Of a stretch of DNA of 32,173 nucleotides, positions 1-24,527 are shown one piece after another; position 1 is the stretch's first letter; the number at the start of each line of letters is the position of its first letter. The position numbers and the translations under genes were made by a program. Origin of the DNA: Flavobacteriales bacterium (GTDB lineage Bacteria > Bacteroidota > Bacteroidia > Flavobacteriales_G > JALEGO01); contig JALEGO010000756.1 in assembly GCA_022763165.1 (NCBI GenBank), positions 1-32,173 of the forward strand, read 5' to 3'. The notes beneath the pieces were generated by a model. The model did not search any database. It had not been told where the DNA came from and saw nothing but the letters and a program-made list of their open reading frames with translations.

Positions 1-692
1 AGCTAAAATCTCGCTTCGTTTCCATGGCCTCTCATGAGTTTAGAACTCCCCTGAGTACTATTTTGTCTTCATCTACTTTGGCATTGAAATACAAGTTGAG
101 CGATCAAATTGATAAAAGAGAAAAACACCTTAATCGGATCCAAAGCTCTGTAAAGAATTTGACTTCAATTTTAAATGATTTTCTATCATTAAGCAGATTA
201 GAGGAAGGCAGGATACAATTGAATATTGCGGATGTTAATATTGAGGAGCTGGTAAAGGATTTGATCGATGAACTTCAAGAATTGAGGAAAGAAGGGCAAA
301 GCTTTGACTTTAAGTGCCGTATCAAAAATAAGATTGTTCGATCGGATGAGAATGTCATGAGAAATGTATTCAACAACTTAATATCAAATGCAATCAAATA
401 TTCCCCAGAAAACTCATTGATAAAAATAAATTGTGAAGATGAGAACGGGGATTATCTCATAAGTGTTTCCGATCAAGGAATAGGGATACCTGAAGATGAG
501 CAAATGCATCTATTTGATCGTTTTTTCAGAGCACAGAATGTTACAAACATCCAAGGGACAGGATTGGGTTTGAATATCGTTAAACGGTATGTCAATCTTT
601 TAAAAGGAGAGATCAGTTTCACTAGTAAGGAAAATGAAGGAACCACATTTTACATAAAACTGCCAAAATTTGTAGGAAATGAAGAAGGATAA
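1..692 (+). CDS. Sensor histidine kinase, C-terminal part (5' end outside window)
   Basis: The frame is open from base 3, before the first ATG at 24, and reads LKSRFVSMASHEFRTPLS, the usual approach to the phospho-acceptor helix, so this is the 3' part of a longer kinase and ATG 24 is not its start. Visible parts are the H-box (SHEFRTP), an N-box (NNLISNAIKYSP), the G1 box (DQGIGIP), an F-box (LFDRFFRAQN) and the G2 box (GTGLGLNIVKRYV). It should autophosphorylate on His and pass phosphate to a receiver domain. It overlaps the next gene, a receiver-Crp/Fnr fusion, by 14 bases, which strongly suggests a cognate pair. The sensing part, which would tell whether it is a heme, PAS or other redox sensor, is not in the window. 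Confidence 0.93.
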   Translation, partial: LKSRFVSMASHEFRTPLSTILSSSTLALKYKLSDQIDKREKHLNRIQSSVKNLTSILNDFLSLSRLEEGRIQLNIADVNIEELVKDLIDELQELRKEGQSFDFKCRIKNKIVRSDENVMRNVFNNLISNAIKYSPENSLIKINCEDENGDYLISVSDQGIGIPEDEQMHLFDRFFRAQNVTNIQGTGLGLNIVKRYVNLLKGEISFTSKENEGTTFYIKLPKFVGNEEG

Positions 693-1740
693 GATATTGT
701 TGATAGAGGATAACCTAGAAGTACGTGAGAATACTGCTGAACTCTTGGAGTTATCAAATTTTGATGTGACTACTGCCGAAAATGGTAAAGTAGGGATTCA
801 AAAAGCAAAGGAAGAACTACCAGACCTCATTATTTGTGATATCATGATGCCGGAATTAGATGGGTATGGTGTGCTTCAGTTTTTGAGTCGGGATCCTCAA
901 ACTGCCGGGATTCCTTTTGTCTTTTTGACGGCAAAGGCTGATAAAACGGATTTAAGAAAAGGGATGAATTTGGGTGCGGATGACTACTTGACAAAACCTT
1001 TTGAAGAAACTGAGCTGATCGATACAATTGAAATGCGTCTCAAGAAACATCGAAGACTTACCCAGGATTTTGAAAAGTCAAAAGGTGGTATTGAAGACTT
1101 CTTTGAGGAAGCAAAATCGCATGGAAGGTTGGAAGACTTGTTGGTTGACAAAAAGACCAGAAGCTTCAAGAAAAAGGAAAGCATTTACCGAGAAGGTGAC
1201 TATGCAAATTACTTGTACTTTTTAGAGTCAGGTAAAGTTAAGGGTTACAAAACTGATGATTATGGGAAAGAATTTGTAACAGAGTTATATGCAAAAGGTG
1301 ACTTTATTGGGTATTTCGATCTACTCAAAGGAGACGAGTACTCTGATTCTGCTGCCGCCTTGGAAGATTCACAATTACTGATTGTGCCAAGAAGAGATTT
1401 TGAAGATTTGGTATTTAAGAACAGAGATGTAGCGAGTCAATTCATTAAGCTCTTGGCCAACAATATTGGTGAACGGGAAGAAGAACTATTAAGGCTTGCT
1501 TTTTCTCCCGTAAGAGAAAGAGCCGCAGCCGCATTGTTGAAACTTCATAAAAAATATTCAAATGAAGATAACCCTAAAATCTCAATTTCTCGTGAAGATC
1601 TAGCAGGTATGGTGGGAACAGCCACCGAATCTATTATCAGAACCTTGAGCGACTTCAAAGAGGAGGGTCTTATTGAGATAAAATCCAGAGACATTTACCT
1701 TCGTGAAATTGAGAAACTCAAGGCTTTAGCTCAAGTCTGA
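679..1740 (+). CDS. Response regulator receiver fused to Crp/Fnr-type DNA-binding protein
   Basis: 353 aa. Residues 4-120 form a receiver domain with the acidic pair E10/D11, phospho-acceptor Asp54 (IICDIMMPE), Thr84 and Lys106 (DDYLTKPF). Residues about 150-265 are a cyclic-nucleotide-binding-like beta roll, followed by a dimer helix and a Crp-type helix-turn-helix at about 303-340. In the recognition helix, Glu317 and Arg321 match E209 and R213 of E. coli FNR, while Ile320 takes the place of Ser212. The only cysteine is Cys53 beside the phospho-Asp, so it cannot bind an FNR-type 4Fe-4S cluster. Control is therefore expected from the overlapping upstream kinase. It is the only Crp/Fnr protein in the window and the natural candidate to bind the TGA-N6-TCA palindromes found here. 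One such site overlaps its own stop codon. Confidence 0.93.
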   Translation: MKKDKILLIEDNLEVRENTAELLELSNFDVTTAENGKVGIQKAKEELPDLIICDIMMPELDGYGVLQFLSRDPQTAGIPFVFLTAKADKTDLRKGMNLGADDYLTKPFEETELIDTIEMRLKKHRRLTQDFEKSKGGIEDFFEEAKSHGRLEDLLVDKKTRSFKKKESIYREGDYANYLYFLESGKVKGYKTDDYGKEFVTELYAKGDFIGYFDLLKGDEYSDSAAALEDSQLLIVPRRDFEDLVFKNRDVASQFIKLLANNIGEREEELLRLAFSPVRERAAAALLKLHKKYSNEDNPKISISREDLAGMVGTATESIIRTLSDFKEEGLIEIKSRDIYLREIEKLKALAQV

Positions 1741-1820: not shown

Positions 1821-2147
1821 ATGAGATCTTTATTAGTGATTCTTGCGCTTACATTTACATTGAGTGCAAATGTTAAGGGACAAAATGATTGTCATGTAAT
1901 AGTTCAAATCTCGGAATCTCAGTCTAAGGAAATGGGAATTCGTTCGTATTTCAATACACACAAGAGTATCTCATTGGAATACTATTGTGGGGAAAGTGGC
2001 TTTGCTGTATTCACTATTAATGAATCTCCCTTGTCAGATGACGGGGATTTTAGAATGTTAATTACCAATGAACTTAAGAAGGCAGGTGTCTCAAGTCCTG
2101 TAATTGTTAAGGTTAAAATTATTGGAAGTTCATCAAATAAATGTTAA
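1821..2147 (+). CDS. Small exported protein of unknown function
   Basis: 108 aa with a signal peptide (MRSLLVILALTFTLSANVKGQ, cleavage likely near residue 20), then a mature part of about 87 aa containing three cysteines (NDC near the N-terminus, YYC in the middle, and the C-terminal residue Cys108). I do not recognise a family. It is the first gene of a likely operon with the coiled-coil/HMA protein (3-base gap) and the universal stress protein, downstream of a putative Crp/Fnr operator at 1737. Metal or redox handling in the periplasm would suit the cysteines and the HMA neighbour, but that is inference from context only. Confidence 0.75.
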   Translation: MRSLLVILALTFTLSANVKGQNDCHVIVQISESQSKEMGIRSYFNTHKSISLEYYCGESGFAVFTINESPLSDDGDFRMLITNELKKAGVSSPVIVKVKIIGSSSNKC

Positions 2148-2150
2148 CCC

Positions 2151-2846
2151 ATGCTAACGAATAAAATTGTACGATTACATCAAGCCGATGAACATAGGCT
2201 AGACGAATTATTGTTTTTGAAAGACGAAGTTCGCTTCTTTAAAAAGGCCATGAGCAACTATTTCCTCAAGCTACTTCATCAAAATGCTTTAGAAGAAGCG
2301 GAGCGTTTGTCAAGTGAAATTATTGAAGTAGAAAAGGTTATTCAATCTGTATTGCAAAGGTTAAACATCCTTGAAAAGGAGATCAGTTTCGTAGTGTGCG
2401 ATCCTAGTGATGAAGGAGAGGGACGCCTATTAAGTTTTGGGCAGGAGTTGGAAGTAGAACTAAGAGAGGTCGAAGAGCATGTCAGAGATCTGAAAAGAAG
2501 ACTTTTTATTTTTCTGGAACATACGAATGTTTCTGAAAGGGAATGGTTATCAAGAAAGGGAATCAAAAGACTCAGAGAGGTGAAGATTTACAACCTAAAA
2601 TGTGGAGGCTGCGCGAATACAATAATAAAAGAGTTATCAAGGATAAAAGGTGTAACATCCATCGAAGTGGAAGAACATGAATCGATCGTACGACTAGAAG
2701 CTTCTTCTGAAACCGTTATGGGGAAGGTAAAAACAAGACTAACCGAACTGGGCTATCCACCAATTGAAGGTAAAAACACAATGGGTCGTAAAGCAAAGTC
2801 CTATGTGAGCTGCATGAAGGGAAGAATTAATGAACCAACAACATAA
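2151..2846 (+). CDS. Coiled-coil protein with C-terminal heavy-metal-associated domain
   Basis: 231 aa. Residues about 5-130 are charged and helical with heptad-like stretches, including an acidic run around 90-115, and no membrane segment. Residues about 142-205 form an HMA/copper-chaperone fold: the metal loop is LKCGGCANT with Cys151 and Cys154, followed by the typical pattern GVTSIEVEEHESIVRLEA and TRLTELGYPP. HMA domains of this kind bind Cu(I) or other soft metals and hand them to P-type ATPases. A copper-transporting P-type ATPase for cbb3 oxidase is encoded 13 kb downstream. The protein sits 3 bases after the exported protein and 6 before the universal stress gene, so the three are probably co-transcribed. 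The long helical N-terminal extension is unusual for a chaperone that is normally about 70 aa. Confidence 0.82.
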   Translation: MLTNKIVRLHQADEHRLDELLFLKDEVRFFKKAMSNYFLKLLHQNALEEAERLSSEIIEVEKVIQSVLQRLNILEKEISFVVCDPSDEGEGRLLSFGQELEVELREVEEHVRDLKRRLFIFLEHTNVSEREWLSRKGIKRLREVKIYNLKCGGCANTIIKELSRIKGVTSIEVEEHESIVRLEASSETVMGKVKTRLTELGYPPIEGKNTMGRKAKSYVSCMKGRINEPTT

Positions 2847-2852
2847 ATTATT

Positions 2853-3674
2853 ATGAATACTAGAATATTGATACCCACTGACTTTTCTGAAACAGCAAAA
2901 GCTGCATTTGAATACGTGTACGAACTATTTGGCAAGGAAGCGCATTATGACATACTCAATTGTTATTATGATTTATCGGTTGAAGGTGTTGGTGAGCCAT
3001 ATATGGAGGTCTTAAAGTCAAGTTCAGAAAAGAGAATGCTCGAAGAGTTTGATCGCATCAAAGAAAAATATGACATTGCGGAAGGGAAATTGAGAGGATT
3101 ATCAAACTATGGTACTCCAATCTTTGGGATTAAAAGTGCAACCCAGGAAACGAAATACGACTTGGTTACTATGGGAACTCATGGCGCTTCTGGAATGAAG
3201 GAATTGTTTATTGGAAGCAATACAGCAGAAGCCTTGAAGAATTTGGAAGTTCCGCTGCTTGTTGTACCAGTTGGAGCAGAAGAGCCTAAAATTGAAAATA
3301 TAGTATTTGCTGCGGACTATCAGTTCTTAGATCAGGATAAATTGGACATTTTAAGAAGGATTGCCGAACCACAAAAGGCTAAACTATGGGCCTTGCACAT
3401 TGAACAGCCGGTCTTAAGCATTGATGATAGAACGGAACAGCGTGTTGAGCAAATTATTTTAAAGAGAGCAATATCCGATTTTGAGCATCAATTTGTGGAT
3501 CTGCCCCAAGGAAATATAGAAAAGAGCATTACACAGTTTGTCGAAAGGCATGATGGCGATTTATTGGTTATGGTAAGAAGAGAGTATTCCTTCGTAGAAA
3601 ACTTGATTAAAACGAGCCAGACCAAGAAGATGGCAATGCACACCAAGGTACCTTTATTGGTTTTACCAGAATAG
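2853..3674 (+). CDS. Tandem universal stress protein (two Usp domains)
   Basis: 273 aa, made of two Usp domains in the arrangement common in Bacteroidota: residues 1-143 begin RILIPTDFSETAKAAFEYV and contain the nucleotide-binding loop pattern (MGTHGASGMKELFIGSNTAEAL), and the second, more degenerate half begins near IENIVFAADYQFL and ends VPLLVLPE. Cytoplasmic; the first half should bind ATP, while the second lacks the glycine loop. It is the last gene of the group starting at 1821 and ends 9 bases before the convergent SulP gene. A paralogue with the same architecture lies at 24983-25798, also behind a putative Crp/Fnr operator, which supports a role in low-oxygen adaptation. Confidence 0.93.
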   Translation: MNTRILIPTDFSETAKAAFEYVYELFGKEAHYDILNCYYDLSVEGVGEPYMEVLKSSSEKRMLEEFDRIKEKYDIAEGKLRGLSNYGTPIFGIKSATQETKYDLVTMGTHGASGMKELFIGSNTAEALKNLEVPLLVVPVGAEEPKIENIVFAADYQFLDQDKLDILRRIAEPQKAKLWALHIEQPVLSIDDRTEQRVEQIILKRAISDFEHQFVDLPQGNIEKSITQFVERHDGDLLVMVRREYSFVENLIKTSQTKKMAMHTKVPLLVLPE

Positions 3675-12208: not shown

Positions 12209-13111
12209 TTATTCTAAAACGAAGCGCTGTTTCGAAATCCTTTCTTTTTCTTGATGCAGAAAATCAATATACGCATTAGCAGCAGGACTCAGTTCTTTGT
12301 TGCTTAACCAAACTAAGTTCCATTGTGTAACAATAGGTAGATTCTTCAATTCATAAATCTCCAAAAGCCCTAGTTTGATTTCATTTCGAATACCAATTAC
12401 AGGCATAATCGATAGACCAATTCCAGCCATTACAGACTGTTTTACGGCTTCATTTGATGTTAACTCATAGGTTTTAGTTGGTTGAATATCATGCTTCTTA
12501 ATATAAGTTTCCATACTTACTCTGGTAGCAGAACCTTTTTCCCTAAAGATCAAAGGAAAGTTGTTAAGTTCTCGTTTGTTTTTGATTTTGTAACCGGGGG
12601 CACCAACTAAATATAATTTATTGGACATCAAGTCAATACGGTTTAACTTCAAATGGTCTGGTAAAACCGAAACTAATGAAAAGTCTACTGTGTTTTCCTC
12701 TAGACTTTGCACTACTTTTTGTTTATTGGTTACATCAACTGTAAGGTCGAGAGCTGGATATTGTTTGATAAAATCGGTTAGAAAGAAAGGCATTACGTAT
12801 TTTCCCGTGGATACAATTGATATTTTAATGCTGCCTACTAAAAAGCCTTTATATGCAAGGCTCTTCTCCTTCATAATCTGAACTTCATTCAATATAATTT
12901 GAGATTGTTTGCAGATCTCTTTGCCGAAATCAGTAAAGTGGACTCTTTTATTAATGATCTCATAAAGAGGGACATCAAACTGCTCTTGTAATTTTTTTAA
13001 TTGTATCGAAACGGCAGGCTGGGTCAAAAAGAGCGCTTCTGCTGTTTTAGTTATGCTGTTCATTTCGAAGAGCTTAACTAGTATTCTGAGCTGATTTAAA
13101 GTATAGTTCAT
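12209..13111 (-). CDS. LysR-family transcriptional regulator
   Basis: 300 aa. The N-terminal winged HTH occupies residues 3-62 (LNQLRILVKLFEMNSITKTAEALFLTQPAVSIQLKKLQEQF). The effector domain follows from about 90 (LVGSIKISIVSTGKYVMPFFLTDFIKQYP; AGIGLSIMPVIGIRNEI). It resembles the CbbR/CysB-like branch, in which members control carbon fixation or inorganic carbon uptake. It is divergent from a group ending in an SbtA-type bicarbonate permease, with 78 bp between the start codons, the usual LysR layout, so it probably controls that group and itself. The co-inducer is unknown. Confidence 0.94.
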   Translation of the reverse strand: MNYTLNQLRILVKLFEMNSITKTAEALFLTQPAVSIQLKKLQEQFDVPLYEIINKRVHFTDFGKEICKQSQIILNEVQIMKEKSLAYKGFLVGSIKISIVSTGKYVMPFFLTDFIKQYPALDLTVDVTNKQKVVQSLEENTVDFSLVSVLPDHLKLNRIDLMSNKLYLVGAPGYKIKNKRELNNFPLIFREKGSATRVSMETYIKKHDIQPTKTYELTSNEAVKQSVMAGIGLSIMPVIGIRNEIKLGLLEIYELKNLPIVTQWNLVWLSNKELSPAANAYIDFLHQEKERISKQRFVLE

Positions 13112-13120
13112 AAATTTTGG

Positions 13121-13177
13121 TTATGAATAATATAAATATAATAAATTTTTATTTATGAAAAATACTAAAGACATTTG
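13121..13177 (+). promoter_or_regulatory. LysR/permease divergent promoter region
   Basis: An interrupted dyad, ATAAATA (13132-13138) and TATTTAT (13150-13156) with 11 bases between, has the arm spacing of LysR-type boxes. Two copies of TTATGAA (13121-13127, 13153-13159) lie 32 bp apart, three helical turns. A -7-like GACATTTG (13170-13177) precedes the ATG at 13190. The region is very AT-rich, so chance repeats are likely and confidence in each element is modest. Confidence 0.4.
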
Positions 13178-13189
13178 TAAAAAACAATT

Positions 13190-13447
13190 ATGAAAATATA
13201 CAGTAAGCAATCAGTAGTTCAAAAATGCGCCAAAACTAGCGCTGAGGATGTTGATGTTAAGGCATTAATTATGCAATATCTTAACGAGCAAAAAGTTGAC
13301 GATGATGCTGAGCTAGCCTGGGAAGACAATGAAACGGCCATGCTAAAGTCAAAATCAGGAATGACGCTTCATGGGTTGGTCTTATTGGCTGAAAAGCAAG
13401 GCATCAACGTTACGATAGAAAAGCAGACGGTAGTAAGATTTCAATAG
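13190..13447 (+). CDS. Small soluble protein, unknown, first gene of permease group
   Basis: 85 aa with no signal peptide or membrane segment. It contains an acidic middle (VDDDAELAWEDNETAML) and a C-terminal part rich in hydrophobic and beta residues (MTLHGLVLLAEKQGINVTIEKQTVVRFQ). I do not recognise a family. It starts about 12 bases after a -7-like element. Its stop codon is immediately followed by the ATG of the next gene, so translation is tightly coupled. Cyanobacterial SbtA is controlled by the PII-like protein SbtB, but this 85-aa protein does not show a PII pattern, so it is not called SbtB. Confidence 0.75.
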   Translation: MKIYSKQSVVQKCAKTSAEDVDVKALIMQYLNEQKVDDDAELAWEDNETAMLKSKSGMTLHGLVLLAEKQGINVTIEKQTVVRFQ

Positions 13448-13645
13448 ATGTTAAAATTGATGATCAAAATAACTTTGGGAGCGCTGACTCTTTCCATTCT
13501 GTTTTGGATGTTCCCAATTCTTATTAGACATCATTTGACTAAGGATGTTTTGAATTACTATTTGGCTGGGGCGGTCATATTAATTTTAGGGTTTTTGATG
13601 CGAAAACTCGTCACCATCTTGAACCTGGACATAGACAAGCATTGA
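13448..13645 (+). CDS. Small two-helix membrane protein, unknown
   Basis: 65 aa with two predicted membrane helices (about 5-25 LMIKITLGALTLSILFWMFPILI and about 36-53 NYYLAGAVILILGFLMRKLV) and a short charged tail. It begins at the base after the stop codon of the 85-aa gene and ends 9 bases before the SbtA-like gene, so the three form one operon. It may be an accessory subunit of the permease; that is inference from spacing only. Confidence 0.7.
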   Translation: MLKLMIKITLGALTLSILFWMFPILIRHHLTKDVLNYYLAGAVILILGFLMRKLVTILNLDIDKH

Positions 13646-13654
13646 GATTAAATT

Positions 13655-14617
13655 ATGGACTCCGATTGTTTAATCAACAATTTGACTAATCCAGCCCTGC
13701 TTTTTTTCATTCTTGGCGTATTAGCGGTGCAATTCAAAAGTGATCTGCAAATACCCAAGACTTCATCACAATTCATATCTCTTTATTTACTCTTTTCAAT
13801 TGGTTTTAAAGGAGGGCAAGAACTTGCTCATGGAGGATTGACCCTTGAGGTACTCACTGCGGTGGTGCTAGGCGTGGTTCTAGCAGCACTAATCCCATTG
13901 TATGTATTCTTCATTACTAGGAAACGTCTTGGTGCGCAAAATGCAGGGGCTGTTGCGGCAGCATACGGTTCAATCAGCGCAATAACCTTTATCACCGGAA
14001 TTTCTTTCTTGGAACATCTCGACATCGAGTTCCACAGTCATATGATCGCGGTGATGACCTTTATGGAGGCTCCAGCTATTGTGGTAGGCATGTTCTTGAT
14101 GAAAAAGTTTGCTCCAGATAGTCAAACTGCCTCAATTAAAGATGTCTTAAAGCACGCCTTGACCAACGGGAGCGTATTTCTAATCGCTGGGAGCTTGATT
14201 ATCGGATTTGTGACTTCAGAAGAAAACGCTCAAGGAATAGCCCCCTTCGTTACAGATATTTTTAAAGGCTTCTTAGTCATTTTTTTACTGGACATGGGAA
14301 TAGAAAGCGGCAAAAGGTTGAAGTCATTGAAAGCATCTAAGTTTTACGCATTTGGCTTGGCGCTATTATTTCCATTGTTTAATGGAACTCTAGTGGCCAT
14401 TTTGACCAAAATGTTCATTCAATCTCCGGGCGATAGATTTCTATTTGCAATACTGGCAGCAAGTGCTTCTTATATTGCTGTGCCCGCTGCTATGCGCATT
14501 GCGGCTCCAAAGGCCAACCCTGGTATTTATATTACCATGGCCCTTGCCATTACCTTTCCCTTGAATATCACTTTAGGTTTTCCAGTGTATTATTCATTAA
14601 TTGAATACTTCCAATAG
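13655..14617 (+). CDS. sbtA: SbtA-type sodium-dependent bicarbonate permease
   Basis: 320 aa with about ten membrane helices. The N-terminus (NNLTNPALLFFILGVLAVQFKSDLQIPKTSSQFISLYLLFSIGFKGG) matches the SbtA/DUF897 family, and the discontinuous-helix regions typical of the fold are recognisable (AAYGSISAITFITGISFLE; ASASYIAVPAAMRIAAPKANPGIYITMALAITFPLNI), including the inverted-repeat architecture. It should import bicarbonate with sodium across the inner membrane, supplying anaplerotic carboxylases or carbonic anhydrase. It is the last gene of a LysR-divergent group. In cyanobacteria SbtA is part of the CO2-concentrating mechanism; here no RuBisCO or carboxysome gene is seen, so the role must differ. 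Confidence 0.88.
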   Translation: MDSDCLINNLTNPALLFFILGVLAVQFKSDLQIPKTSSQFISLYLLFSIGFKGGQELAHGGLTLEVLTAVVLGVVLAALIPLYVFFITRKRLGAQNAGAVAAAYGSISAITFITGISFLEHLDIEFHSHMIAVMTFMEAPAIVVGMFLMKKFAPDSQTASIKDVLKHALTNGSVFLIAGSLIIGFVTSEENAQGIAPFVTDIFKGFLVIFLLDMGIESGKRLKSLKASKFYAFGLALLFPLFNGTLVAILTKMFIQSPGDRFLFAILAASASYIAVPAAMRIAAPKANPGIYITMALAITFPLNITLGFPVYYSLIEYFQ

Positions 14618-14710: not shown

Positions 14711-15133
14711 TTAATACTGATCAATAAGATAATTGACGAGATCAGTTGTGGTAACGATCCCTTCTAAGGAACCATTCTCATTCGTAACAGGCAAAGCATG
14801 AAATTCTTCTACGGCAAGTTGTTCCGCTACTTCTTTAATGGTATCATTGGCTTTGACTGTTCTTAGATCACTTTTCATGACTTGGCTAACAGAAAGCATG
14901 TCAAAAATCGCTGCGTCTACTTCCTTTTCTTGGTCAAAATTACCTCCAAAACTTATTCTATGAATATCCGTCAGACTTAACATTCCAACCAGCTTTTCTC
15001 CTGATACAACAGGGACGTGTCTGATTTTATTCTTTTCCATTAAATCTTTTGCCTCAACGAGCGTTCCATCGTTAATATTGATAGTTTTTACCTCTTTCGT
15101 CATAATGTGACTTACGGGCTCTCTTTTCTTCAT
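14711..15133 (-). CDS. CBS-domain-pair protein
   Basis: 140 aa, made of two CBS domains only: VSHIMTKEVKTININDGTLVEAKDLMEKNKIRHVPVVSGEKLVGMLSLTDI at about 7-60 and VSQVMKSDLRTVKANDTIKEVAEQLAVEEFHALPVTNENGSLEGIVTTTDLVNYL at about 82-136. CBS pairs bind adenosine nucleotides and act as energy sensors or regulators of a partner; no catalytic domain is present. It is paralogous to the gene at 24555, with the same insertion between domains and the same VTTTD ending. A Crp/Fnr-type operator lies 75 bases upstream at 15209-15222. The two paralogues thus bracket the cbb3 gene block. Confidence 0.92.
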   Translation of the reverse strand: MKKREPVSHIMTKEVKTININDGTLVEAKDLMEKNKIRHVPVVSGEKLVGMLSLTDIHRISFGGNFDQEKEVDAAIFDMLSVSQVMKSDLRTVKANDTIKEVAEQLAVEEFHALPVTNENGSLEGIVTTTDLVNYLIDQY

Positions 15134-15208
15134 GATTTATCGTTTAAATGTTGACTTAAAGGTCCAAAAATCATCTGTCAATGAACATCAGGCTAGTCAT
15201 TTGAAAAC

Positions 15209-15222
15209 CTGATTTATATCAT
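15209..15222. promoter_or_regulatory. Crp/Fnr-type operator, site 3 (CTGATTTATATCAT)
   Basis: Fits the shared palindrome and lies 75 bases before the minus-strand CBS start at 15133. The minus-strand octamer GACCTTTA (15157-15164) is 55 bp from the site centre, nearly the same octamer as at site 1; GATTTTTG at 15165-15172 is a better -7 match but at 47 bp. Confidence 0.68.
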
Positions 15223-15638: not shown

Positions 15639-15711
15639 AATTATTCAATTTTATTGGAACTAAATTACCTGGATTTCAAACCATATTGAATTGCATTTGT
15701 CATATGAAAGC

Positions 15712-15725
15712 ATGACATATATCAT
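15712..15725. promoter_or_regulatory. Crp/Fnr-type operator, site 4, shared by divergent genes (ATGACATATATCAT)
   Basis: Part of the 16-bp palindrome CATGACATATATCATG (15711-15726). On plus, TACTTTTA (15748-15755, one base off TAnnTTTG) is 33 bp from the site centre, placing it near -41 for ccoI, with a very short leader before ATG 15761. On minus, TAATTTAG (15660-15667) is 55 bp away, placing it near -62 for the 113-aa gene. One site can thus serve both promoters in the two activator positions. A second inverted pair, TGTCAT-N8-ATGACA, overlaps its left side. Confidence 0.72.
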
Positions 15726-15760: not shown

Positions 15761-18163
15761 ATGTCTTTGATCAAAGAAAAGGTTGAGTGTTTCCATTGTT
15801 CGGATGAATGTGTGACTACGATTGAATATGATGACAAAATGTTTTGTTGCCAAGGTTGCAAAGGGGTGTATCAGTTGTTTTCTGACAATGGAATGATCGA
15901 TTATTATGATCTTGATGAAAAAGCGGGCATTAAACCAGGAGAGAATGATTTAGACGCATTTTTTTATCTCGATCAACCAGAGATAAAGCAGGACCTGCTC
16001 AGTTTTTACGATGAGGCCTCGAAATACGAGAAGGTCAATTTACACCTACCAATGATTCATTGTAGTGCATGCATTTGGTTACTAGAAAATCTTCCGAAAA
16101 TCAATTCTGGCGTTGTTAATGTCAGGGTCAATTTTGCTCAAAGAAAAGCGGATATAACATACAACAAAGAGAAGTTGAGCCTAAGACAACTGGCTCTTTT
16201 TTTAAAAAGCATTGGTTATGAGCCCAGAATTCAATTAGAGGCCTTGCGTTCGTCAAATCCGAAATCACAAACGGACAGAAATCTATTGTATAAACTTGGT
16301 TTGGCAGGCTTTGCCTTTGGTAACGTGATGTTACTCAGCTTTCCTTCCTATTTTGGTGATCAGAGTTTTCAATTCAGTAAATATCAGAGCACCTTTTCTT
16401 TCGTTAGTTTTTTGCTTTCCATTCCTGTAATTCTTTACTCAGCATCTGATTATATTAAGGCGGCCTATTATGCGGTCAAAAGAAAATCCCTAGGGATAGA
16501 TATTCCCATTACAATTGGTCTTTTTGCGATTTTTTTTCAAAGTGTTTGGGAAATAACTTCTCATACTGGTCATGGTTATTTTGATTCTTTAACTGGTTTG
16601 GTATTCTTTCTCTTAATTGGAAAGTGGTTTCAAGGAAGAGTATACAAAAGACTATCGTTTGATAACGACTATTCATCATTTTTTCCTGCCGCAGTAAGAT
16701 ATATAGTTGGTGATAGAGTTGACTCCAAAAAGGTTGATGACTTGAAAACGGGCGATATTATTGAAGTGAGGAGTAATGAAATTATCCCGGTTGATTGCAA
16801 ACTTCTTTCTTCAACATCACAGATTGATTACAGTTTTGTTACTGGTGAATCAGAGCCCACCAGTAAACTTAAGGGCAACATTTTATTTGCAGGGGGCAGA
16901 GTAATTGGTAAATCTGTTAGGTTGGAGGTTCTAAAAGAGTTGAAGGAAAGTCAATTATTGCGTTTGTGGAAGTCAGACAACCATAAAAAACAAGAAAAGC
17001 CAATGATAAAACTTACACAGAGCATTGCAAAAGTCTTTACGATAACCGTATTGATCCTTGCAGTTTCTGGTTTCTTTTTTTGGTTAGATCAGGGCTTAAG
17101 TAAAGCTATTTTTGTGTTTTCTTCGGTATTAATTATTGCTTGTCCATGTGCTCTTGCCTTGGCCGCCCCATTTGGTTTGGGCAACAGTTTAAGACTTTTG
17201 GCAAAGAGAGGATTTTATTTGAAAGATATCGCCACGCTTGAACGTCTCACTAAGATTAAACATATAGTCTTTGATAAGACCGGGACCATCACGTCCAACA
17301 AAGACTTTAGAGTACATTATACTGGAGATTCTTTTTCAGATTCAGAATGGAGAATCATTAAAGGGACAACAAGGCATTCCCTCCATCCTTTGAGCATCGC
17401 AATAACGAATAGTATTGATCAACCTCCCTTAGAAATTGATAATTTTCAAGAAATTCCGGGCAAAGGTTTAAAAGCAGAATATTCAGGAAAACCTGTTGCT
17501 TTAGGTTCTGAAGAATTCATTCGAGAAAGATCAAACAAGGAATACGTTTTGAATGGTGAGAATCATGTAATGATAGCCTTAAATGAAAAAATAGGGGCAT
17601 TTACTGTACGCAAAAGCTTGCGGCAGAACATAAAACAAAGTCTTGGTAAACTCTATGAAATCTGTGAAATCTCATTGTTATCTGGGGATTCCGATAGAGA
17701 GGAGGAAAGAATGAAAGATGTTTTTCCTGATGGAGTGGCACTCAATTTTGACCAATCCCCAGAACAAAAACGTGATTACATCGACAAACTTCAAAAGCAC
17801 ACTCCGTGTATGATGATAGGAGATGGATTGAATGATTCGGGCGCTCTTCAGGCAAGTTATGTAGGGATGGCAGTGTCAGATGATCATCAGAATTTCACTC
17901 CTGCTTGCGACATCATTACAGAGGGAAGAGTTTTGAATAGCATTCACATTCTACTTAAAATAGCAAAGAACTCTATGTTAGCTGTGCGCTTAAGTGTGGT
18001 TTTTTCATTATTGTATAATGTCATTGGCTTGTACTTTGCTTTGTCCGGTAACTTGGCGCCTATAGTTGCCGCCATTTTGATGCCTTTGAGCTCTATAAGT
18101 GTAGTTGTTTTTGTGTTTATTTTAACCCAAATGATTCACAAAAGAACCAAAAACAGCATCTAA
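15761..18163 (+). CDS. ccoI: Copper-exporting P-type ATPase for cbb3 oxidase assembly
   Basis: 800 aa. The N-terminal Cys-rich metal domain (CFHCSDEC, CCQGCKGV; residues 10-33) is typical of FixI/CcoI ATPases. The HMA domain follows with Cys101 and Cys104 (IHCSACIW). Eight membrane helices are expected, with the ion-channel motif CPC at 461-463 (IIACPCALA). The actuator loop has TGES (361-364), phosphorylation occurs at Asp505 (DKTGT), the HP motif is present (SLHPLS), and the hinge is GDGLNDSGAL. It moves Cu(I) across the inner membrane for the CuB centre of the cbb3 oxidase encoded immediately downstream. ATG 15761 lies only a few bases after the predicted transcription start. It has its own promoter and operator, and ccoS has another. 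Confidence 0.96.
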   Translation: MSLIKEKVECFHCSDECVTTIEYDDKMFCCQGCKGVYQLFSDNGMIDYYDLDEKAGIKPGENDLDAFFYLDQPEIKQDLLSFYDEASKYEKVNLHLPMIHCSACIWLLENLPKINSGVVNVRVNFAQRKADITYNKEKLSLRQLALFLKSIGYEPRIQLEALRSSNPKSQTDRNLLYKLGLAGFAFGNVMLLSFPSYFGDQSFQFSKYQSTFSFVSFLLSIPVILYSASDYIKAAYYAVKRKSLGIDIPITIGLFAIFFQSVWEITSHTGHGYFDSLTGLVFFLLIGKWFQGRVYKRLSFDNDYSSFFPAAVRYIVGDRVDSKKVDDLKTGDIIEVRSNEIIPVDCKLLSSTSQIDYSFVTGESEPTSKLKGNILFAGGRVIGKSVRLEVLKELKESQLLRLWKSDNHKKQEKPMIKLTQSIAKVFTITVLILAVSGFFFWLDQGLSKAIFVFSSVLIIACPCALALAAPFGLGNSLRLLAKRGFYLKDIATLERLTKIKHIVFDKTGTITSNKDFRVHYTGDSFSDSEWRIIKGTTRHSLHPLSIAITNSIDQPPLEIDNFQEIPGKGLKAEYSGKPVALGSEEFIRERSNKEYVLNGENHVMIALNEKIGAFTVRKSLRQNIKQSLGKLYEICEISLLSGDSDREEERMKDVFPDGVALNFDQSPEQKRDYIDKLQKHTPCMMIGDGLNDSGALQASYVGMAVSDDHQNFTPACDIITEGRVLNSIHILLKIAKNSMLAVRLSVVFSLLYNVIGLYFALSGNLAPIVAAILMPLSSISVVVFVFILTQMIHKRTKNSI

Positions 18164-18228: not shown

Positions 18229-18242
18229 ATGATTTATGTCAT
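18229..18242. promoter_or_regulatory. Crp/Fnr-type operator, site 5, ccoS-ccoNOQP promoter (ATGATTTATGTCAT)
   Basis: Part of the 16-bp palindrome CATGATTTATGTCATG (18228-18243). It ends 75 bases before the ccoS start. The -7-like TTCCTTTG at 18288-18295 (one base off TAnnTTTG) is 56 bp from the site centre. It is expected to activate the whole ccoS-to-SafE operon. Confidence 0.75.
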
Positions 18243-18317
18243 GGATTTGCACAAACCAATGTCATTTTAATCCTTTCAATATAGCCATTCCTTTGACATT
18301 AATAATTGAACGAATTT

Positions 18318-18483: not shown

Positions 18484-20592
18484 ATGGGATTAGTTAAGTA
18501 TCATTATGATAATAAGATTGTTAGGAACTTCTTAGTTGCTACATCTGTTTGGGGACTTGTGGGAATGTTGGGAGGCCTTTTGGTCGCATTACAGCTTGTT
18601 TTTCCTGAAGCCAACTTCGCTGAATATTTCACATTTGGGCGGTTACGGCCAGTTCACACAAATGCAGTCATTTTTGCCTTTGTGGGGAATGGAATTTTCG
18701 CTGGGGTTTACTACTCTCTTCAGCGATTATTGAAAACGAGAATGTGGAGTGATGCTCTGAGTAATATAAACTTTTGGGGGTGGCAATTGATTATTGTGGC
18801 AGCAGCTCTAACCTTGCCTCTGGGATATACAACAGGTAAGGAGTATGCGGAATTAGAATGGCCTATTGATATTGCAATTACTTTGATGTGGGTGGTTTTT
18901 GGACTGAATATGTTTATGACCATTATCAAAAGAAGAGAGCGTCATTTATATGTTGCGGTGTGGTTTTACATTGCAACCTTCGTGACTGTAGCAATGTTGC
19001 ACATTGTAAATAGTTTTGAGTTGCCAATCAGCTTCTTAAAGAGTTACTCATGGTATGCTGGAGTACAAGACGCTTTGGTACAATGGTGGTACGGTCATAA
19101 TGCGGTTGCATTTTTCTTAACTACCCCCTACTTGGGACTGATGTATTATTTCATTCCCAAAGCATCAAACAGACCAGTATACTCATATAAGCTCTCAATC
19201 ATTCACTTTTGGGCTCTGATTTTTATATACATCTGGGCTGGTCCGCATCACCTTCTGTATTCTGCTCTTCCTGATTGGGCGCAATCTTTAGGGGTTGTTT
19301 TTTCAGTAATGCTTATTGCTCCATCCTGGGGAGGTATGCTCAATGGACTACTGACCTTAAGAGGAGCCTGGGACAAAGTTAGAGAAAGCGCAACTCTTAA
19401 ATTTATGGTAGTTGCCGTTACTTGCTATGGAATGGCGACTTTCGAAGGACCTTTGATGTCACTTAAAAATGTAAACGCCATTAGCCACTTCACCGATTGG
19501 ACAATTGCTCACGTGCATGTTGGGGGTTTAGGTTGGAATGGGTTTTTGACTTTTGGAATGCTCTATTGGTTAATCCCAAAAATCTTCCAAACCAAGCTCT
19601 TTTCGAAAAGTGCTGCAAACTTCCATTTCTGGATTGGAACCCTTGGGATACTCTTTTATGCAATACCAATGTATTTCGCTGGCTTTACTCAGAGTTTAAT
19701 GTGGAAGGAATTTACTGCAGCTGGCTTTCTCAGATATCCTAACTTCCTTGAGACTGTCCTGGAGATAAAATGGGCATATGCTCTAAGAGCTTTTGGTGGA
19801 GCGCTATACATTGTAGGAGCTGTTGCCATGGTCTGGAACTTGTGGAAAACAGCTAAATCAGGAAGTCTTTTAGCGAATGAACCAGCAGAGGCTTACGAGT
19901 TAGAGAAGAACGTGACTCATAAAGGAGGCCATTGGCACCGTTGGATTGAAAGAAGACCGGTTCAAATGTTAGTCCTATCATTAGTTTTAGTGGCTATCGG
20001 AGGCATTATTGAGATTGTGCCAACATTCTTGGTGAGCTCAAATATTCCAACAATTGAAAATGTAAAGCCTTATACCCCTCTCGAATTACACGGCAGAGAC
20101 TTATACATCAAAGAAGGATGCTACACATGTCACTCTCAGATGATCCGTCCATTTCGTTCCGAAACGGAGCGTTATGGAGAGTATTCCAAAGCAGGAGAAT
20201 TTGTTTATGACCACCCCTTTCAATGGGGCTCCAAGAGAAATGGACCTGATCTTCACAGAATCGGAGGAAAATATCCTGACTCATGGCATTATCACCACAT
20301 GATAGATCCAACATCAATGTCGCCTGGATCAATTATGCCAACATATGAACATATGGAAACGAATACCATAGACACATCAATGACAGACGAGAAAATACGC
20401 GCCATGCAAACCCTTGGTGTGCCATATCCAGAAGGATATGATTTAATGGCAAATCGAGATTTAGTTACACAAGCAGATAGCATTGTAAACAATCTAAAAA
20501 AGGATAACATTCAGATTACCTCAGATGCTGAGCTCGTTGCACTTATTGCCTATTTACAGAGATTAGGGACTGATATCAAAGGAAAAAAATAA
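18484..20592 (+). CDS. ccoNO: Fused cbb3-type cytochrome c oxidase subunits I and II (CcoN-CcoO)
   Basis: 702 aa. Residues about 1-460 are CcoN with 12 membrane helices and the metal ligands: His58 (RPVHTNA), the CuB histidine and crosslinked tyrosine region (QWWYGHNAVAFFLTTPYLGLMYYFIP), the His pair (GPHHLLYSALP), and the heme histidines (TDWTIAHVHVGGLGWNGF). A linker of about 30 residues (NEPAEAYELEKNVTHKGGHWHRWIERRP) leads into CcoO with one membrane anchor and heme c site CYTCH at 546-550, and an axial Met region (PGSIMPTYEHM). The N-O fusion is the Bacteroidota form. The enzyme reduces oxygen to water with high affinity and pumps protons in the inner membrane. Genes ccoQ and ccoP follow. 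Confidence 0.97.
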   Translation: MGLVKYHYDNKIVRNFLVATSVWGLVGMLGGLLVALQLVFPEANFAEYFTFGRLRPVHTNAVIFAFVGNGIFAGVYYSLQRLLKTRMWSDALSNINFWGWQLIIVAAALTLPLGYTTGKEYAELEWPIDIAITLMWVVFGLNMFMTIIKRRERHLYVAVWFYIATFVTVAMLHIVNSFELPISFLKSYSWYAGVQDALVQWWYGHNAVAFFLTTPYLGLMYYFIPKASNRPVYSYKLSIIHFWALIFIYIWAGPHHLLYSALPDWAQSLGVVFSVMLIAPSWGGMLNGLLTLRGAWDKVRESATLKFMVVAVTCYGMATFEGPLMSLKNVNAISHFTDWTIAHVHVGGLGWNGFLTFGMLYWLIPKIFQTKLFSKSAANFHFWIGTLGILFYAIPMYFAGFTQSLMWKEFTAAGFLRYPNFLETVLEIKWAYALRAFGGALYIVGAVAMVWNLWKTAKSGSLLANEPAEAYELEKNVTHKGGHWHRWIERRPVQMLVLSLVLVAIGGIIEIVPTFLVSSNIPTIENVKPYTPLELHGRDLYIKEGCYTCHSQMIRPFRSETERYGEYSKAGEFVYDHPFQWGSKRNGPDLHRIGGKYPDSWHYHHMIDPTSMSPGSIMPTYEHMETNTIDTSMTDEKIRAMQTLGVPYPEGYDLMANRDLVTQADSIVNNLKKDNIQITSDAELVALIAYLQRLGTDIKGKK

Positions 20593-20597
20593 AGAAC

Positions 20598-20762
20598 ATG
20601 TTAAAGTACATTAAACATCATATGGAATTGATTACAGGAATTGAAATCTTTCCAATTATATCGTTTCTCATATTCTTTCTATTCTTTATTGTAGTTGGGA
20701 TTTGGGTGTTTACAGCTAGGAAGAGCTATATCGATGAAATGAAGAATATACCACTGGATTGA
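20598..20762 (+). CDS. ccoQ: cbb3-type oxidase small subunit CcoQ
   Basis: 54 aa: a short N-terminal segment (MLKYIKHHMELITGIEIFP), one membrane helix (IISFLIFFLFFIVVGIWVFT) and a charged tail (ARKSYIDEMKNIPLD) ending in the IPLD motif common in CcoQ of this phylum. It lies 5 bases after ccoNO and 15 before ccoP. CcoQ stabilises the assembled oxidase. Recognition rests on position, size and topology as much as on sequence. Confidence 0.88.
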   Translation: MLKYIKHHMELITGIEIFPIISFLIFFLFFIVVGIWVFTARKSYIDEMKNIPLD

Positions 20763-20777
20763 TCTTAGAAGTTTTGA

Positions 20778-21929
20778 ATGAAATTGAGTAATATGAAAAG
20801 GATTTTCTCACTTGTTTTAGGAACACTATTCAGCGCTCCTCTATTCGCTGAAACACAACAAACAGCAGTTACGAATGATGACACAATCCTCTATATTCTA
20901 GGAGGGATAATGGTGATACTATTATTCCTAATTATTGGAGTGGGCTCCACAATAAGCAATCTTGCCGGGAACAAGGATTTTTGGAAAAACTATTCAAAAG
21001 AGAAGACAAACTCGAATCTAAAGACAATAATCATTTTCATAGCACTCTGGGGCATAAGTAATTCGGGTTTTTCGCTATCAGTTTCACCTCCTGCTGAACA
21101 AGCTGAAATGGCTGGTGAAGGTCAATTCATATTTTGGCTGCTTTTTATAACTGATATCATTCTTGCAATTGTGCTTTACACGATGATTAAGATCCTCAAT
21201 GGCATGACCAAAACGCTTGCTGGCAAAGATGAGGAAGAAAAGGAAGATGTGTTGGAAAAAGTGGCTGCAAGTTTGACAAGCGCTGTGCCAATTGAGAATG
21301 AGGAAACAATAATGATGGACCATGAATATGATGGTATTAGAGAATTGGACAATGTATTACCACCATGGTGGGTAGGGATGTTCTATGCTACGATAATCTT
21401 TGGTTTAATCTATGTTCCATATTACCATTTTGGTTCAGGTCAACTACAGGCAGAGGAATACGAAAGTGAAGTCGTTTTGGCTGAAGAGCAAAAGGCCGCA
21501 TATATGGCCAAAATGGCAAATTCGGTAAACGAGAGTAACGTCAAACTTATAACTGATGAGGTACGCCTAGAAAATGGTCGAAAGCTGTATATGAATAATT
21601 GCATCGCTTGCCACGGTGTGCAGGGTGAAGGAGGAGTAGGACCCAATTTGACAGATGAATACTGGATTCATGGAGGAGGAATTAAGAATGTCTTCAAAAC
21701 CATTAAATATGGAATTCCAGAAAAAGGAATGATTGCTTGGCAAGCACAAATGACTCCGGCACAACTCAATGAAGTTGCAAGTTATATTCTGAACAAATTC
21801 CAAGGAACAAATCCAAGCAACGGAAAAGAACCTCAAGGGGACCTTTATAAGGAAGCTCAATCAGCTCAAGAATCCGATACTATTTCGACTTTAAGTGATA
21901 CACTGGAGGTTGATACATTAAAAGAATGA
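20778..21929 (+). CDS. ccoP: cbb3-type oxidase subunit III (CcoP), single heme c
   Basis: 383 aa from ATG 20778; ATG 20793 (MKRIFSLVLGTLFSAPLFA) is equally good as a signal-peptide start. After the signal come two further hydrophobic pairs (TILYILGGIMVILLFLIIGVG; TIIIFIALWGISNSGF and FIFWLLFITDIILAIVLYTMI), then the CcoP anchor motif (YDGIRELDNVLPPWWVGMFYATIIFGLIYVPYYH). A cytochrome c domain follows at about 265-345 with heme site CIACH (275-279) and the Met region near KGMIAW. Proteobacterial CcoP has two heme c domains; only one is present here, with a long acidic tail. It passes electrons to CcoO/CcoN. The last codon overlaps the start of ccoG. Confidence 0.95.
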   Translation: MKLSNMKRIFSLVLGTLFSAPLFAETQQTAVTNDDTILYILGGIMVILLFLIIGVGSTISNLAGNKDFWKNYSKEKTNSNLKTIIIFIALWGISNSGFSLSVSPPAEQAEMAGEGQFIFWLLFITDIILAIVLYTMIKILNGMTKTLAGKDEEEKEDVLEKVAASLTSAVPIENEETIMMDHEYDGIRELDNVLPPWWVGMFYATIIFGLIYVPYYHFGSGQLQAEEYESEVVLAEEQKAAYMAKMANSVNESNVKLITDEVRLENGRKLYMNNCIACHGVQGEGGVGPNLTDEYWIHGGGIKNVFKTIKYGIPEKGMIAWQAQMTPAQLNEVASYILNKFQGTNPSNGKEPQGDLYKEAQSAQESDTISTLSDTLEVDTLKE

Positions 21930-23338
21930 GCCAAAACAGCACGAATACTGATCAATCATATCGCGATAAAATAGCAACCGTAGATGGTTCAGGAAAAAGA
22001 CTTTGGATTTTCCCTAAAAAACCATTTGGGAAATTCTATAACTGGAGAAAAATTACCAGCTACTTTCTGATTGCTATTTTATTAGGAGGACCTTTTATCA
22101 CAGTACAAGGCCAACCATTGCTTATGCTTAACATCCTTGAAAGGAAGTTTGTGATTTTTGGTAAAATCTTCTGGCCACAGGACATTCATCTTTTTGCATT
22201 ATTAGTAATCACAGGTGTGGTGTTTATTATTCTTTTCACTGTGATATTCGGCAGATTGTTCTGCGGATGGGTTTGCCCTCAGACCATTTTTATGGAAATG
22301 CTTTTCAGGCGTATCGAATATTGGTTTGAAGGAGATTGGAAACACCAGCAAAAACTTTCTAAAATGCCATGGAATTTTGAGAAGATTCGAAAAAGGGGTG
22401 GGAAATGGCTGGCGTTTTGGGTCGTGTCATTTGTGATAGCCAACGTATTTCTTGCTTATATTATTGGAAGTAAGTCGCTCATCAGTATTATTACAGACCC
22501 CATTTCTGCTCATATTGGAGGCCTAAGTTCATTGATGATTTTTACAACTATTTTTTTTCTGGTGTTTGCATGGTTTAGAGAGCAGGTTTGTACGGTTGTT
22601 TGCCCCTATGGTCGACTACAAGGAGTTCTTTTAGATAGAAACTCGGTAGTCGTAGCATATGATCACAAAAGAGGAGAATCTAGGGGGAAATACAGAAAAG
22701 GGGAAGATCGAACTTCCAATGGGAAAGGGGATTGTATAGATTGTTCTCAATGCGTGCATGTTTGTCCCACTGGAATTGATATTCGGAATGGCACCCAGCT
22801 AGAGTGTGTGAATTGCACAGCCTGCATTGATGCCTGCGATTTTATGATGGAAAAGACCGGTCTGGAAAAAGGTCTTATTAGATACGCGAGTGAAAACCAA
22901 ATTGAGACAGGCACAAAGTTCCAATTCACCACCAGAATGATCGCCTCATCGGCAGTTCTTGGAATTTTGATGGTGATTTTTACAGTGTTGTTAATTACCA
23001 GAACCGATGTGGAACTCTCATTATTAAGAGCTCCTGGAATGCTTTATCAAGAAAAGAGCGACAACCACTATTCTAATCTGTATACTTTCAAGTTGATTAA
23101 TAAAACAAACAAAGACTTTGATGTAACATTCAAAGTGGAAAACAAAATCGGGGAAGTTGAATTAGTAGGAGATTCTCTATCACATATCAAAAGAGAAGCT
23201 ATTTCGGAAGGGGCTCTTTTTATACTGCTCAAAAACACTGAACTGGAGGGAAAGAAGACTCCTTTAGTAATAGGCGTTTACAAAGATGAAAAGCGCATTG
23301 ATAAAATTAAAACGACTTTCATAGGTCCAAAAATTTAA
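21926..23338 (+). CDS. ccoG: cbb3 oxidase accessory protein CcoG (4Fe-4S, copper handling)
   Basis: 470 aa, overlapping ccoP by ATGA. Membrane segments occur near 40-60, 90-115, 160-180, 195-215 and 340-360. Motifs: the first Cys pair (FCGWVCPQTIFMEMLFRRIEYW), a second pair (CTVVCPYGRLQGVLLD), then two 4Fe-4S ferredoxin sets (CIDCSQCVHVCPTGIDIRNG and CVNCTACIDACDFMMEK). A periplasmic immunoglobulin-like C-terminal domain (about 370-470) completes the family layout (FixG/CcoG, RdxA). CcoG is thought to reduce Cu(II) to Cu(I) for the CcoI/CcoA copper route. Gene order ccoNO-Q-P-G-H is standard. Confidence 0.96.
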   Translation: MSQNSTNTDQSYRDKIATVDGSGKRLWIFPKKPFGKFYNWRKITSYFLIAILLGGPFITVQGQPLLMLNILERKFVIFGKIFWPQDIHLFALLVITGVVFIILFTVIFGRLFCGWVCPQTIFMEMLFRRIEYWFEGDWKHQQKLSKMPWNFEKIRKRGGKWLAFWVVSFVIANVFLAYIIGSKSLISIITDPISAHIGGLSSLMIFTTIFFLVFAWFREQVCTVVCPYGRLQGVLLDRNSVVVAYDHKRGESRGKYRKGEDRTSNGKGDCIDCSQCVHVCPTGIDIRNGTQLECVNCTACIDACDFMMEKTGLEKGLIRYASENQIETGTKFQFTTRMIASSAVLGILMVIFTVLLITRTDVELSLLRAPGMLYQEKSDNHYSNLYTFKLINKTNKDFDVTFKVENKIGEVELVGDSLSHIKREAISEGALFILLKNTELEGKKTPLVIGVYKDEKRIDKIKTTFIGPKI

Positions 23339-23341
23339 ATT

Positions 23342-23770
23342 ATGAGTTGGGGAAACGGAATTACGGTAGCTATAGTTTTATTCATAAGCTTCATTCTATA
23401 TTTTGTCTTTAGGATGATTAACCATGATGTGGATCTGGTGGCTGAAGACTACTATGCTCAAGAACTGGCCTATCAAGATCAGATTCATAAAATTCAGAAT
23501 GCTGAACAAAGAGGAGTAACCACTAAAGTCATTATGTTGAATGATTCCCTAAAGATAGAATTCGATAATGTTGAAGGCTTTGAAAATGGCGAATTAACCA
23601 TGTACAGACCATCAAACCCAAGTAAAGATTTAAAAGTACCATTAATCCTAAGAGATAAGGCATTCACATTGGCAACAAAAGATCTCAATACTGGTAAGTA
23701 TGTCGCAAAGTTGAACTTTGATTTGCAAGGCACCCCTTGCTACGCTGAAAACATCGTTGTCATCCCATGA
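23342..23770 (+). CDS. ccoH: cbb3 oxidase assembly protein CcoH (FixH)
   Basis: 142 aa: one N-terminal membrane helix (GNGITVAIVLFISFILYFVFRM) followed by the FixH motif (DVDLVAEDYYAQELAYQDQIHKIQNAE), then a beta-rich periplasmic domain. It starts 3 bases after ccoG and overlaps the next gene by ATGA. FixH helps in late assembly of the oxidase. Confidence 0.93.
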   Translation: MSWGNGITVAIVLFISFILYFVFRMINHDVDLVAEDYYAQELAYQDQIHKIQNAEQRGVTTKVIMLNDSLKIEFDNVEGFENGELTMYRPSNPSKDLKVPLILRDKAFTLATKDLNTGKYVAKLNFDLQGTPCYAENIVVIP

Positions 23771-24469: not shown

Positions 24470-24483
24470 ATGACATTAATCAG
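24470..24483. promoter_or_regulatory. Crp/Fnr-type operator, site 6 (ATGACATTAATCAG)
   Basis: Fits the shared palindrome and begins 4 bases after the last cbb3-operon stop codon, 71 bases before the CBS start at 24555. A perfect -7 element TAAATTTG (24528-24535) lies 55 bp from the site centre, the clearest promoter of the series. Confidence 0.75.
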
Positions 24484-24527
24484 TTTTCCATATGATGACT
24501 GTTAATGGATATTCATGGATTCCCCAA

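Follow-up and report, generated by a model that had tools for sequence, protein, structure and literature searches.

A receiver-fused Crp/Fnr regulator and its FixL-like partner kinase as a predicted microaerobic switch in Bacteroidota

The regulator and its locus

The window analysed here is a stretch of 32,173 nucleotides that makes up contig C480 of a draft genome (5.5 Mb, 809 contigs, 86% complete) whose nearest relatives and homologues are Bacteroidota. It opens with the C-terminal part of a histidine kinase (DHp and ATPase regions, matched by HisKA and HATPase_c; positions 3-692, forward strand), the N-terminus of which lies beyond the contig. The kinase frame ends at 692 and overlaps by 14 bp with the gene of a 353-aa protein (679-1740, forward strand), as the original prediction had it. 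This protein, which we call REC-Crp, is a predicted activator that combines a receiver with a Crp/Fnr-type DNA-binding part (Pfam). The receiver (694-1029; Response_reg, aa 6-117, 3e-27) carries the phospho-acceptor Asp54 together with Thr84 and Lys106, the residues by which response regulators are recognised, all of them as claimed for it earlier. A cNMP-binding-type sensory domain (1159-1419; cNMP_binding, aa 161-247, 2e-21) and an HTH_Crp_2 DNA-binding domain (1516-1728; Pfam aa 280-350, 1e-15) follow on the same strand. Matches to PF00027, PF13545 and PF00325 exceed the cut-offs and the predicted secondary structure agrees, placing the protein in the Crp/Fnr superfamily. Among the best 60 PDB matches, no chain spans both the receiver and the Crp halves.

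FNR is normally its own oxygen sensor. Alignment of REC-Crp with E. coli FNR and CRP places it outside the [4Fe-4S] FNR family, since the four cluster cysteines (FNR C20, C23, C29 and C122) are absent. The equivalent of Cys122 is Leu, the N-terminal cysteine region is missing, and the only cysteine found in the protein is Cys53, next to the phospho-Asp, so that the predicted lack of cluster cysteines was borne out. The same alignment shows Tyr at both CRP cAMP-ligand positions, Glu72 and Arg82; REC-Crp thus also falls outside the cAMP-binding CRPs by its residues, and a cAMP input is not expected. Cys53 itself (window 835-837) is invariant in 76/76 REC-Crp homologues, and a redox role is possible. 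The predicted recognition helix (aa 316-328, about 1624-1662, forward strand) includes Thr316, Glu317, Ile320 and Arg321. Glu317 and Arg321 correspond to Glu209 and Arg213 of FNR and Ile320 takes the place of Ser212, in agreement with what had been read from the sequence, while residue 316 corresponds to FNR Val208 and CRP Arg180. Pfam detected no second Crp/Fnr protein in the window, which confirms that REC-Crp is the only one of this block; LysR and OmpR-type regulators are present.

Several putative targets of REC-Crp in the window are encoded on the forward strand. Directly downstream of the regulator lie a small protein, an HMA-domain protein and a UspA (1821-3674; open reading frames, with Pfam support for the last two). 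Further along are a copper-type P-type ATPase (CopA, 15761-18163; E1-E2_ATPase, Hydrolase, ATPase-cat_bd) and, beside it, a cbb3 oxidase operon that encodes CcoNO (COX1 and FixO), CcoP, CcoG, CcoH and a DsbD_2-type protein (18484-24465, Pfam), followed by a CBS protein and a UspA (24555-25798, Pfam). CcoN and CcoO form one fused protein of 702 aa (COX1 and FixO, 18484-20592), and CcoNO of related genomes is likewise a single frame of about 700 aa. A LysR gene stands beside an SbtA-type bicarbonate transporter at 12209-14617, with about 540 bp between them that possibly hold small unannotated genes.

REC-Crp matches were found in 27/60 relatives at the threshold used, 2 of the 27 being partial or devoid of the receiver, and in about 125/296 sampled genomes of the class, as judged by best E-values of at most 1e-47 and open frames of REC-Crp length where listed. 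Asp54, Lys106, Glu317 and Arg321 are invariant in 76/76 full homologues, Thr84 is present in 74 of them and is otherwise Ser, and the Crp half is free of cysteine in 48/76. A kinase lies directly upstream of REC-Crp in 69 of the 71 loci with a readable upstream gene, and genes for CcoNO, CcoP, CcoG, CopA, HemN and Usp are found repeatedly in the flanking DNA. Six genomes (G055, G076, G084, G157, G183 and G230) contain five or six Crp-half relatives each, at least two of them frames of REC-Crp length, and paralogues have therefore diverged there. Our literature search, outside of which lay Galperin's 2006 and 2010 response-regulator censuses, found no description of a receiver-Crp regulator family.

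Operator sites and promoter layout

The pattern MTGAYN4RTCAK, which was formed after seeing the window sites, occurs at five intergenic positions of the window (1737, 15209, 15712, 18229 and 24470) against 0.08 expected under a dinucleotide model. It occurs once inside genes, and other spacers gave 0 or 1 intergenic match. All ten half-sites start with A or C, as the pattern demands, and a search of the window's intergenic DNA for the FNR-like TTGAYN4RTCAA found none. These counts uphold the claim of real sites with a constant TGA core and A or C instead of T in first position.

Site 1 (CTGACACAGATCAT, 1737-1750, forward) overlaps the TGA stop of REC-Crp and has a tandem partner, CTGACCTATCACAG, at 1759-1772 and a weak -7-like box, GATCTTTA, at 1795. 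The site lies ahead of the genes for the small protein, the HMA protein and UspA. Site 2 (15209-15222, reverse strand, read as ATGATATAAATCAG) points toward a CBS-domain gene (14711-15133), with its partner at 15187-15200 and a weak -7-like box, GACCTTTA. Site 3 (ATGACATATATCAT, 15712-15725, forward; partner 15690-15703) lies upstream of CopA (15761); its possible -7 box, TACTTTTA, at 15748 would leave hardly any leader ahead of the annotated copA start. Site 4 (ATGATTTATGTCAT, 18229-18242, forward) precedes ccoNO (18484), with a partner at 18252-18265, 23 bp away, and a -7 box, TTCCTTTG, at 18288. Finally, site 5 (ATGACATTAATCAG, 24470-24483, forward; partner 24492-24505) is found upstream of the CBS/UspA pair (24555) and is followed by a perfect -7 box, TAAATTTG, at 24528-24535. 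All five window sites, as well as the site on contig C697 described below, have a partner scoring 8/10 at 22 or 23 bp.

An unbiased search was then run in 80 other genomes: the intergenic DNA near REC-Crp homologues, 154 kb in total, was screened for palindromes of all 5-mers with spacers of 0-12. The top entries were ATGAC-N4-GTCAT, ACTGA-N6, TGATA-N2 and ATGAT-N4, with CTGAC-N4 next, beneath some GC-rich repeats from two loci each. The top palindromes are one motif in different registers, (A/C)TGAY-N4-RTCA(T/G). NTGAY-N4-RTCAN yielded 237 intergenic sites in the 80 loci, against 5-21 at other spacers and about 12 expected from second-order simulations, and 75/80 loci contain one or more. In first position, A has a frequency of 0.45, C of 0.35, T of 0.12 and G of 0.08 (background 0.35, 0.23, 0.29 and 0.13). 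Sites thus cluster around REC-Crp genes across the phylum, in keeping with the proposed tie between sites and regulator.

The sites share a promoter layout. Among 48 site pairs closer than 150 bp, 34 are spaced at exactly 22 or 23 bp; when degenerate partners are counted, 139/237 sites (about 59%) have one at this distance, and near-sites at the tandem offsets number 67, 49, 15 and 10 versus about 1 per other offset. Gene-ward of the site, TAnnTTTG recurs at +36 and +58, counted from the start of the site, with at most one mismatch in 191/326 site-direction pairs against 15-20 at control offsets, which puts the -7 box 29.5 bp from the proximal site centre. The sigma-A box TAnnTTTG of Flavobacterium psychrophilum occupies -12 to -5 (PMC9723704); from this and the measured spacing, the proximal centre falls at -41.5 and the distal one at -63.5, suggesting that the operators occupy the class II activator position, -41.5. 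This amounts to a promoter code open to testing: two boxes of 14 bp set 22 bp apart, plus a -7 box at 29.5 bp from the centre of the nearer one. Where a site is accompanied by a well-placed -7 box, the genes that follow include the kinase, CcoNO, Usp, HemN and CopA, and further a HemA-type glutamyl-tRNA reductase (GlutR), HSP20, cytochrome c, YceI and ScdA/hemerythrin. For 41/68 kinase operons, there is a site in the 320 bp ahead of the operon.

Whole-genome counts of N4 versus N6 motifs in 60 relatives showed no difference with and without REC-Crp (P=0.68), the coding background being dominant. One genome, G057, has no Crp-half relative at 1e-6, yet 43 N4 versus 17 N6 motifs (2.5 times), and may possess another reader of the N4 motif.

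The partner kinase, the cysteine-bearing Fnr and the recognition helix

According to the original prediction, oxygen information reaches REC-Crp from the overlapping kinase, and the type of its N-terminus was to be determined. The window fragment (3-692) is 55% identical to the kinase that precedes REC-Crp in a related locus, L078, and this second kinase, used as a probe of the source genome, recovered the window and contig C697 (PAS match, 2.6e-27). C697 (3477 bp; L264:1-2297) holds an operator-type site, ATGACTTAAATCAT, 81 bp ahead of an operon of UspA, a protein that we take to be TerB-like by resemblance, and a kinase (L264:1471-2295) with two PAS-like regions that runs off the contig end. 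The last residues of this kinase, VVEQDITKQKRAEKEMKKALE, match VVEQNVTKQKNAENEIRKSLE in the kinase of locus L070, which continues there into KEKELNELKSRFV, and the window begins at LKSRFV, where that continuation leads. The ends of C697 and C480 have no overlap of 8 bases or more, and a join would leave about 17 bases missing. Very probably, C697 holds the missing start of the window kinase and adjoins the window on its left, a physical link that we infer from homology.

The first PAS of C697 has a FixL heme-PAS as its best match (2cmn, 4e-16), with FixL and DosP as the nearest solved structures, and the PAS of the L078 kinase is also closest to a FixL heme-PAS (1dp6, 1e-12). His and Arg are kept in the C697 PAS at the positions of FixL H200 and R220; provided that C697 and C480 join, the window kinase would have the proximal heme His and the regulatory Arg of a FixL-type kinase. 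Together with the kinase found upstream in 69/71 loci, this likely FixL-like heme-PAS N-terminus supports the predicted route of oxygen information. Among partner kinases, the FixL-type His is found in 59/74 matched PAS stretches (61/66 kinase rows in that column), although the other PAS domains near REC-Crp loci, which serve as comparison set, are mostly FixL-like too. Of the 59 PAS domains bearing the His, only 27 also have Arg where FixL has Arg220.

Some lineages have other sensor parts in the partner kinase. In Pontibacter-like loci (L061, L063, L066, L067, L068, L073, L107 and L115), the adjacent kinase is of receiver-HisKA type, with a receiver instead of the PAS, and upstream lies a second kinase that bears two FixL-type PAS, which suggests a longer relay to REC-Crp, likely of four parts. 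Beside the double-FixL-PAS kinase there is mostly a gene for a response regulator or a receiver.

Heme binding by the partner-kinase PAS and oxygen as the signal are thus predicted from homology. Heme-PAS proteins can bind NO and CO. Hence, the same pathway could be driven by a kinase that senses NO or CO, or redox by means of a different PAS cofactor, a reading in keeping with the incomplete conservation of the Arg220 position and the other sensor parts of some loci. We regard it as doubtful, for C697 has both His and Arg, its nearest structures are FixL and DosP, and the targets are typical of microaerobic regulators; in F. psychrophilum, cbb3 and heme synthesis go up on oxygen limitation (PMC9723704).

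Meanwhile, relatives without REC-Crp often carry a free-standing Fnr that is 35-40% identical to the Crp half. These proteins have the helix GTATE..IR and cysteines at FNR C20, C23 and C122 in 20-21 of 21. Around cbb3 or fnr genes of Fnr genomes, 52 loci yielded 89 sites versus 1-9 at other spacers; the set was searched together with 30 nested short loci, which gave no sites, and is not perfectly pure, as one locus, L229, shows a REC-Crp relative. The A/C first base, the 22-bp partner (45/89) and the -7 offsets are identical to those of REC-Crp loci. By these sequence comparisons, the DNA grammar is common to both regulator families and only the sensor differs. The receiver had been considered as the cause of the 22-bp tandem and was rejected, as the tandem is also found in Fnr-only genomes.

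The sites alone do not single out REC-Crp, because Fnr-only genomes have the same ones. They could be read by a cysteine Fnr in the unassembled part of the genome, with REC-Crp controlling something else or merely tuning. Related genomes do have a cysteine Fnr with the same helix and the same operator, and one could be missing from an assembly that is 86% complete. We find this unlikely, given that neither an HTH_Crp_2 scan nor a search with the REC-Crp protein found an FNR-type cysteine protein in the source genome at this completeness; the two other HTH_Crp matches that were read as proteins are without the GTATE..IR helix, so the better-fitting homologue that would have spoken against the original prediction did not appear. 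Moreover, 73/125 REC-Crp genomes have a single match at 1e-25, and many of them therefore run such sites without a detectable Fnr.

When the Crp halves were placed in a tree, one branch separated 70 REC-Crp from 21 Fnr proteins (support 68/100, unrooted), which is consistent with one fusion. We lean slightly toward a scenario in which a single fusion made a two-component regulator out of a one-component Fe-S Fnr (or of its ancestor) and left operators, tandem spacing, promoter position and targets unchanged. If true, this would amount to an exchange of sensors throughout the phylum while the cis-regulatory code stayed frozen, with related species running one microaerobic regulon from an Fe-S cluster or from a heme kinase. 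Two oxygen-sensing chemistries on the same operators would constitute a natural experiment, heme sensing being a prediction here.

Some receivers act without phosphorylation, and that of REC-Crp might similarly be a degenerate dimerisation module, with no phospho-switch and a constitutively active Crp half. This is very improbable in view of the conservation of Asp54 and Lys106 (76/76) and Thr84 (74/76) and of the adjacent kinase (69/71 loci); nor is a receiver needed for the 22-bp tandem, which is present in Fnr-only genomes.

It had also been proposed that residue 320 covaries with the first base of the half-site, as a sign that REC-Crp is matched to its own operator. When the alignment was checked, Ile320 proved near-invariant, being present in 74/76 REC-Crp and 21/21 cysteine Fnr, and covariation within the family is therefore impossible. 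Between families the reasoning fits (Ser with T first in FNR, Ile with A or C here). Judged from the sites of both families, the A/C-first half-site is a dialect common to Bacteroidota Fnr-type regulators with or without a receiver, which leaves no operator that is REC-Crp's own. From the earlier interpretation, the receiver, the kinase and the sites at regulator genes were retained, and the covariation and the private operator match were given up. Of the 76 REC-Crp, just those of L128 and L080 have Val or Thr at 320. They have two and three sites; three of six half-sites at L080 begin with T, too few to judge.

An association was seen with residue 316 instead: C is the first base at 0.42 versus 0.15 and G at 0.04 versus 0.17 in non-Lys316 versus Lys316 loci, a difference reached by 0/5000 locus-label permutations in statistics that ignore phylogeny. 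The Lys316 group consists largely of Pontibacter-like and Saprospiraceae loci, and the association is therefore a lead and not proof. The sister groups of L095 and L079, inspected informally, revealed no clear contrast. Although Ile stands where FNR has Ser and the half-sites are A/C-first, we give almost no credence to Ile320 having evolved with the first base as a private match, considering its presence in nearly all REC-Crp and in every cysteine Fnr, all from A/C-first genomes, the association with residue 316 instead, and the two departing members with their two and three sites.

Proposed switch and comparison with known systems

Based on these findings, we consider it probable that REC-Crp serves as the output component of a microaerobic switch made up of two proteins, in which a FixL-like kinase acts on a receiver-Crp/Fnr activator. 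A cytoplasmic kinase with a FixL-like heme-PAS would sense the drop in oxygen and, by analogy with FixL, become active and phosphorylate Asp54. Phosphorylated REC-Crp, needing neither an Fe-S cluster nor cAMP, would then bind tandem (A/C)TGAY-N4-RTCA(T/G) operators whose centres, 22 bp apart, lie near -41.5 and -63.5. Bound in this position, it would activate TAnnTTTG sigma-A promoters of the cbb3 oxidase, CopA, HemN/HemA, UspA and often its own kinase operon. Phosphotransfer, activation by phosphorylation and DNA binding by REC-Crp are what we infer from domains, conserved residues and sites. Many Bacteroidota possess an FNR-like protein of this kind, without its own sensor and fused to a receiver, which most likely obtains its oxygen information from a FixL-like heme kinase encoded next to it. 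REC-Crp is a candidate master regulator for a phylum where low-oxygen control is little worked out.

The closest parallel is the FixL-FixJ-FixK cascade of Alphaproteobacteria, which likewise comprises a FixL-type heme-PAS kinase (predicted here), a receiver and a cluster-free Crp/Fnr activator, with cbb3 oxidase as main target and an Fnr-like N4 palindrome, there TTGAT-N4-ATCAA (PMC7888657). Unlike in that cascade, REC-Crp joins the FixJ receiver and the FixK DNA-binding part in one polypeptide, and the signal would act on REC-Crp itself and not via transcription of fixK. Its half-sites are A/C-first, in tandem and at Bacteroidota promoters. Pfam found no NarL-type FixJ in the window, which sets the locus apart from a FixLJ-FixK cascade. 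FixK2 of Bradyrhizobium is also a cluster-free Crp/Fnr activator downstream of FixL, but it has no receiver. Its DNA-binding domain contains a redox-active Cys183 (PMC12937710), whereas 48/76 REC-Crp have no cysteine in the Crp half. The hFixL-FxkR-FixK system of Rhizobium resembles REC-Crp in that its FixL-type sensor works with another kind of response regulator; there, FxkR is a regulator by itself and induces fixK via a K-box (PMC7888657).

With FNR and FnrN, including the cysteine Fnr of Bacteroidota, REC-Crp shares a Crp half of 35-40% identity, the Glu-Ile-Arg helix, operator, tandem spacing and -7 position. It differs in that the receiver replaces the cysteine region, the Cys122 position is not conserved and the input probably comes from a kinase. 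With E. coli CRP it has in common the overall Crp fold and the class II position, but has Tyr in place of both Glu72 and Arg82 in the cAMP pocket. By the definition of a 2026 review (PMC12937710), Crp/Fnr proteins signal as one-component systems that contain neither kinase nor response-regulator domains, a rule that the widespread REC-Crp family breaks. Functionally, REC-Crp and its kinase are likely equivalent to FixL-FixJ-FixK compressed into two proteins, a variant that is probably undescribed.
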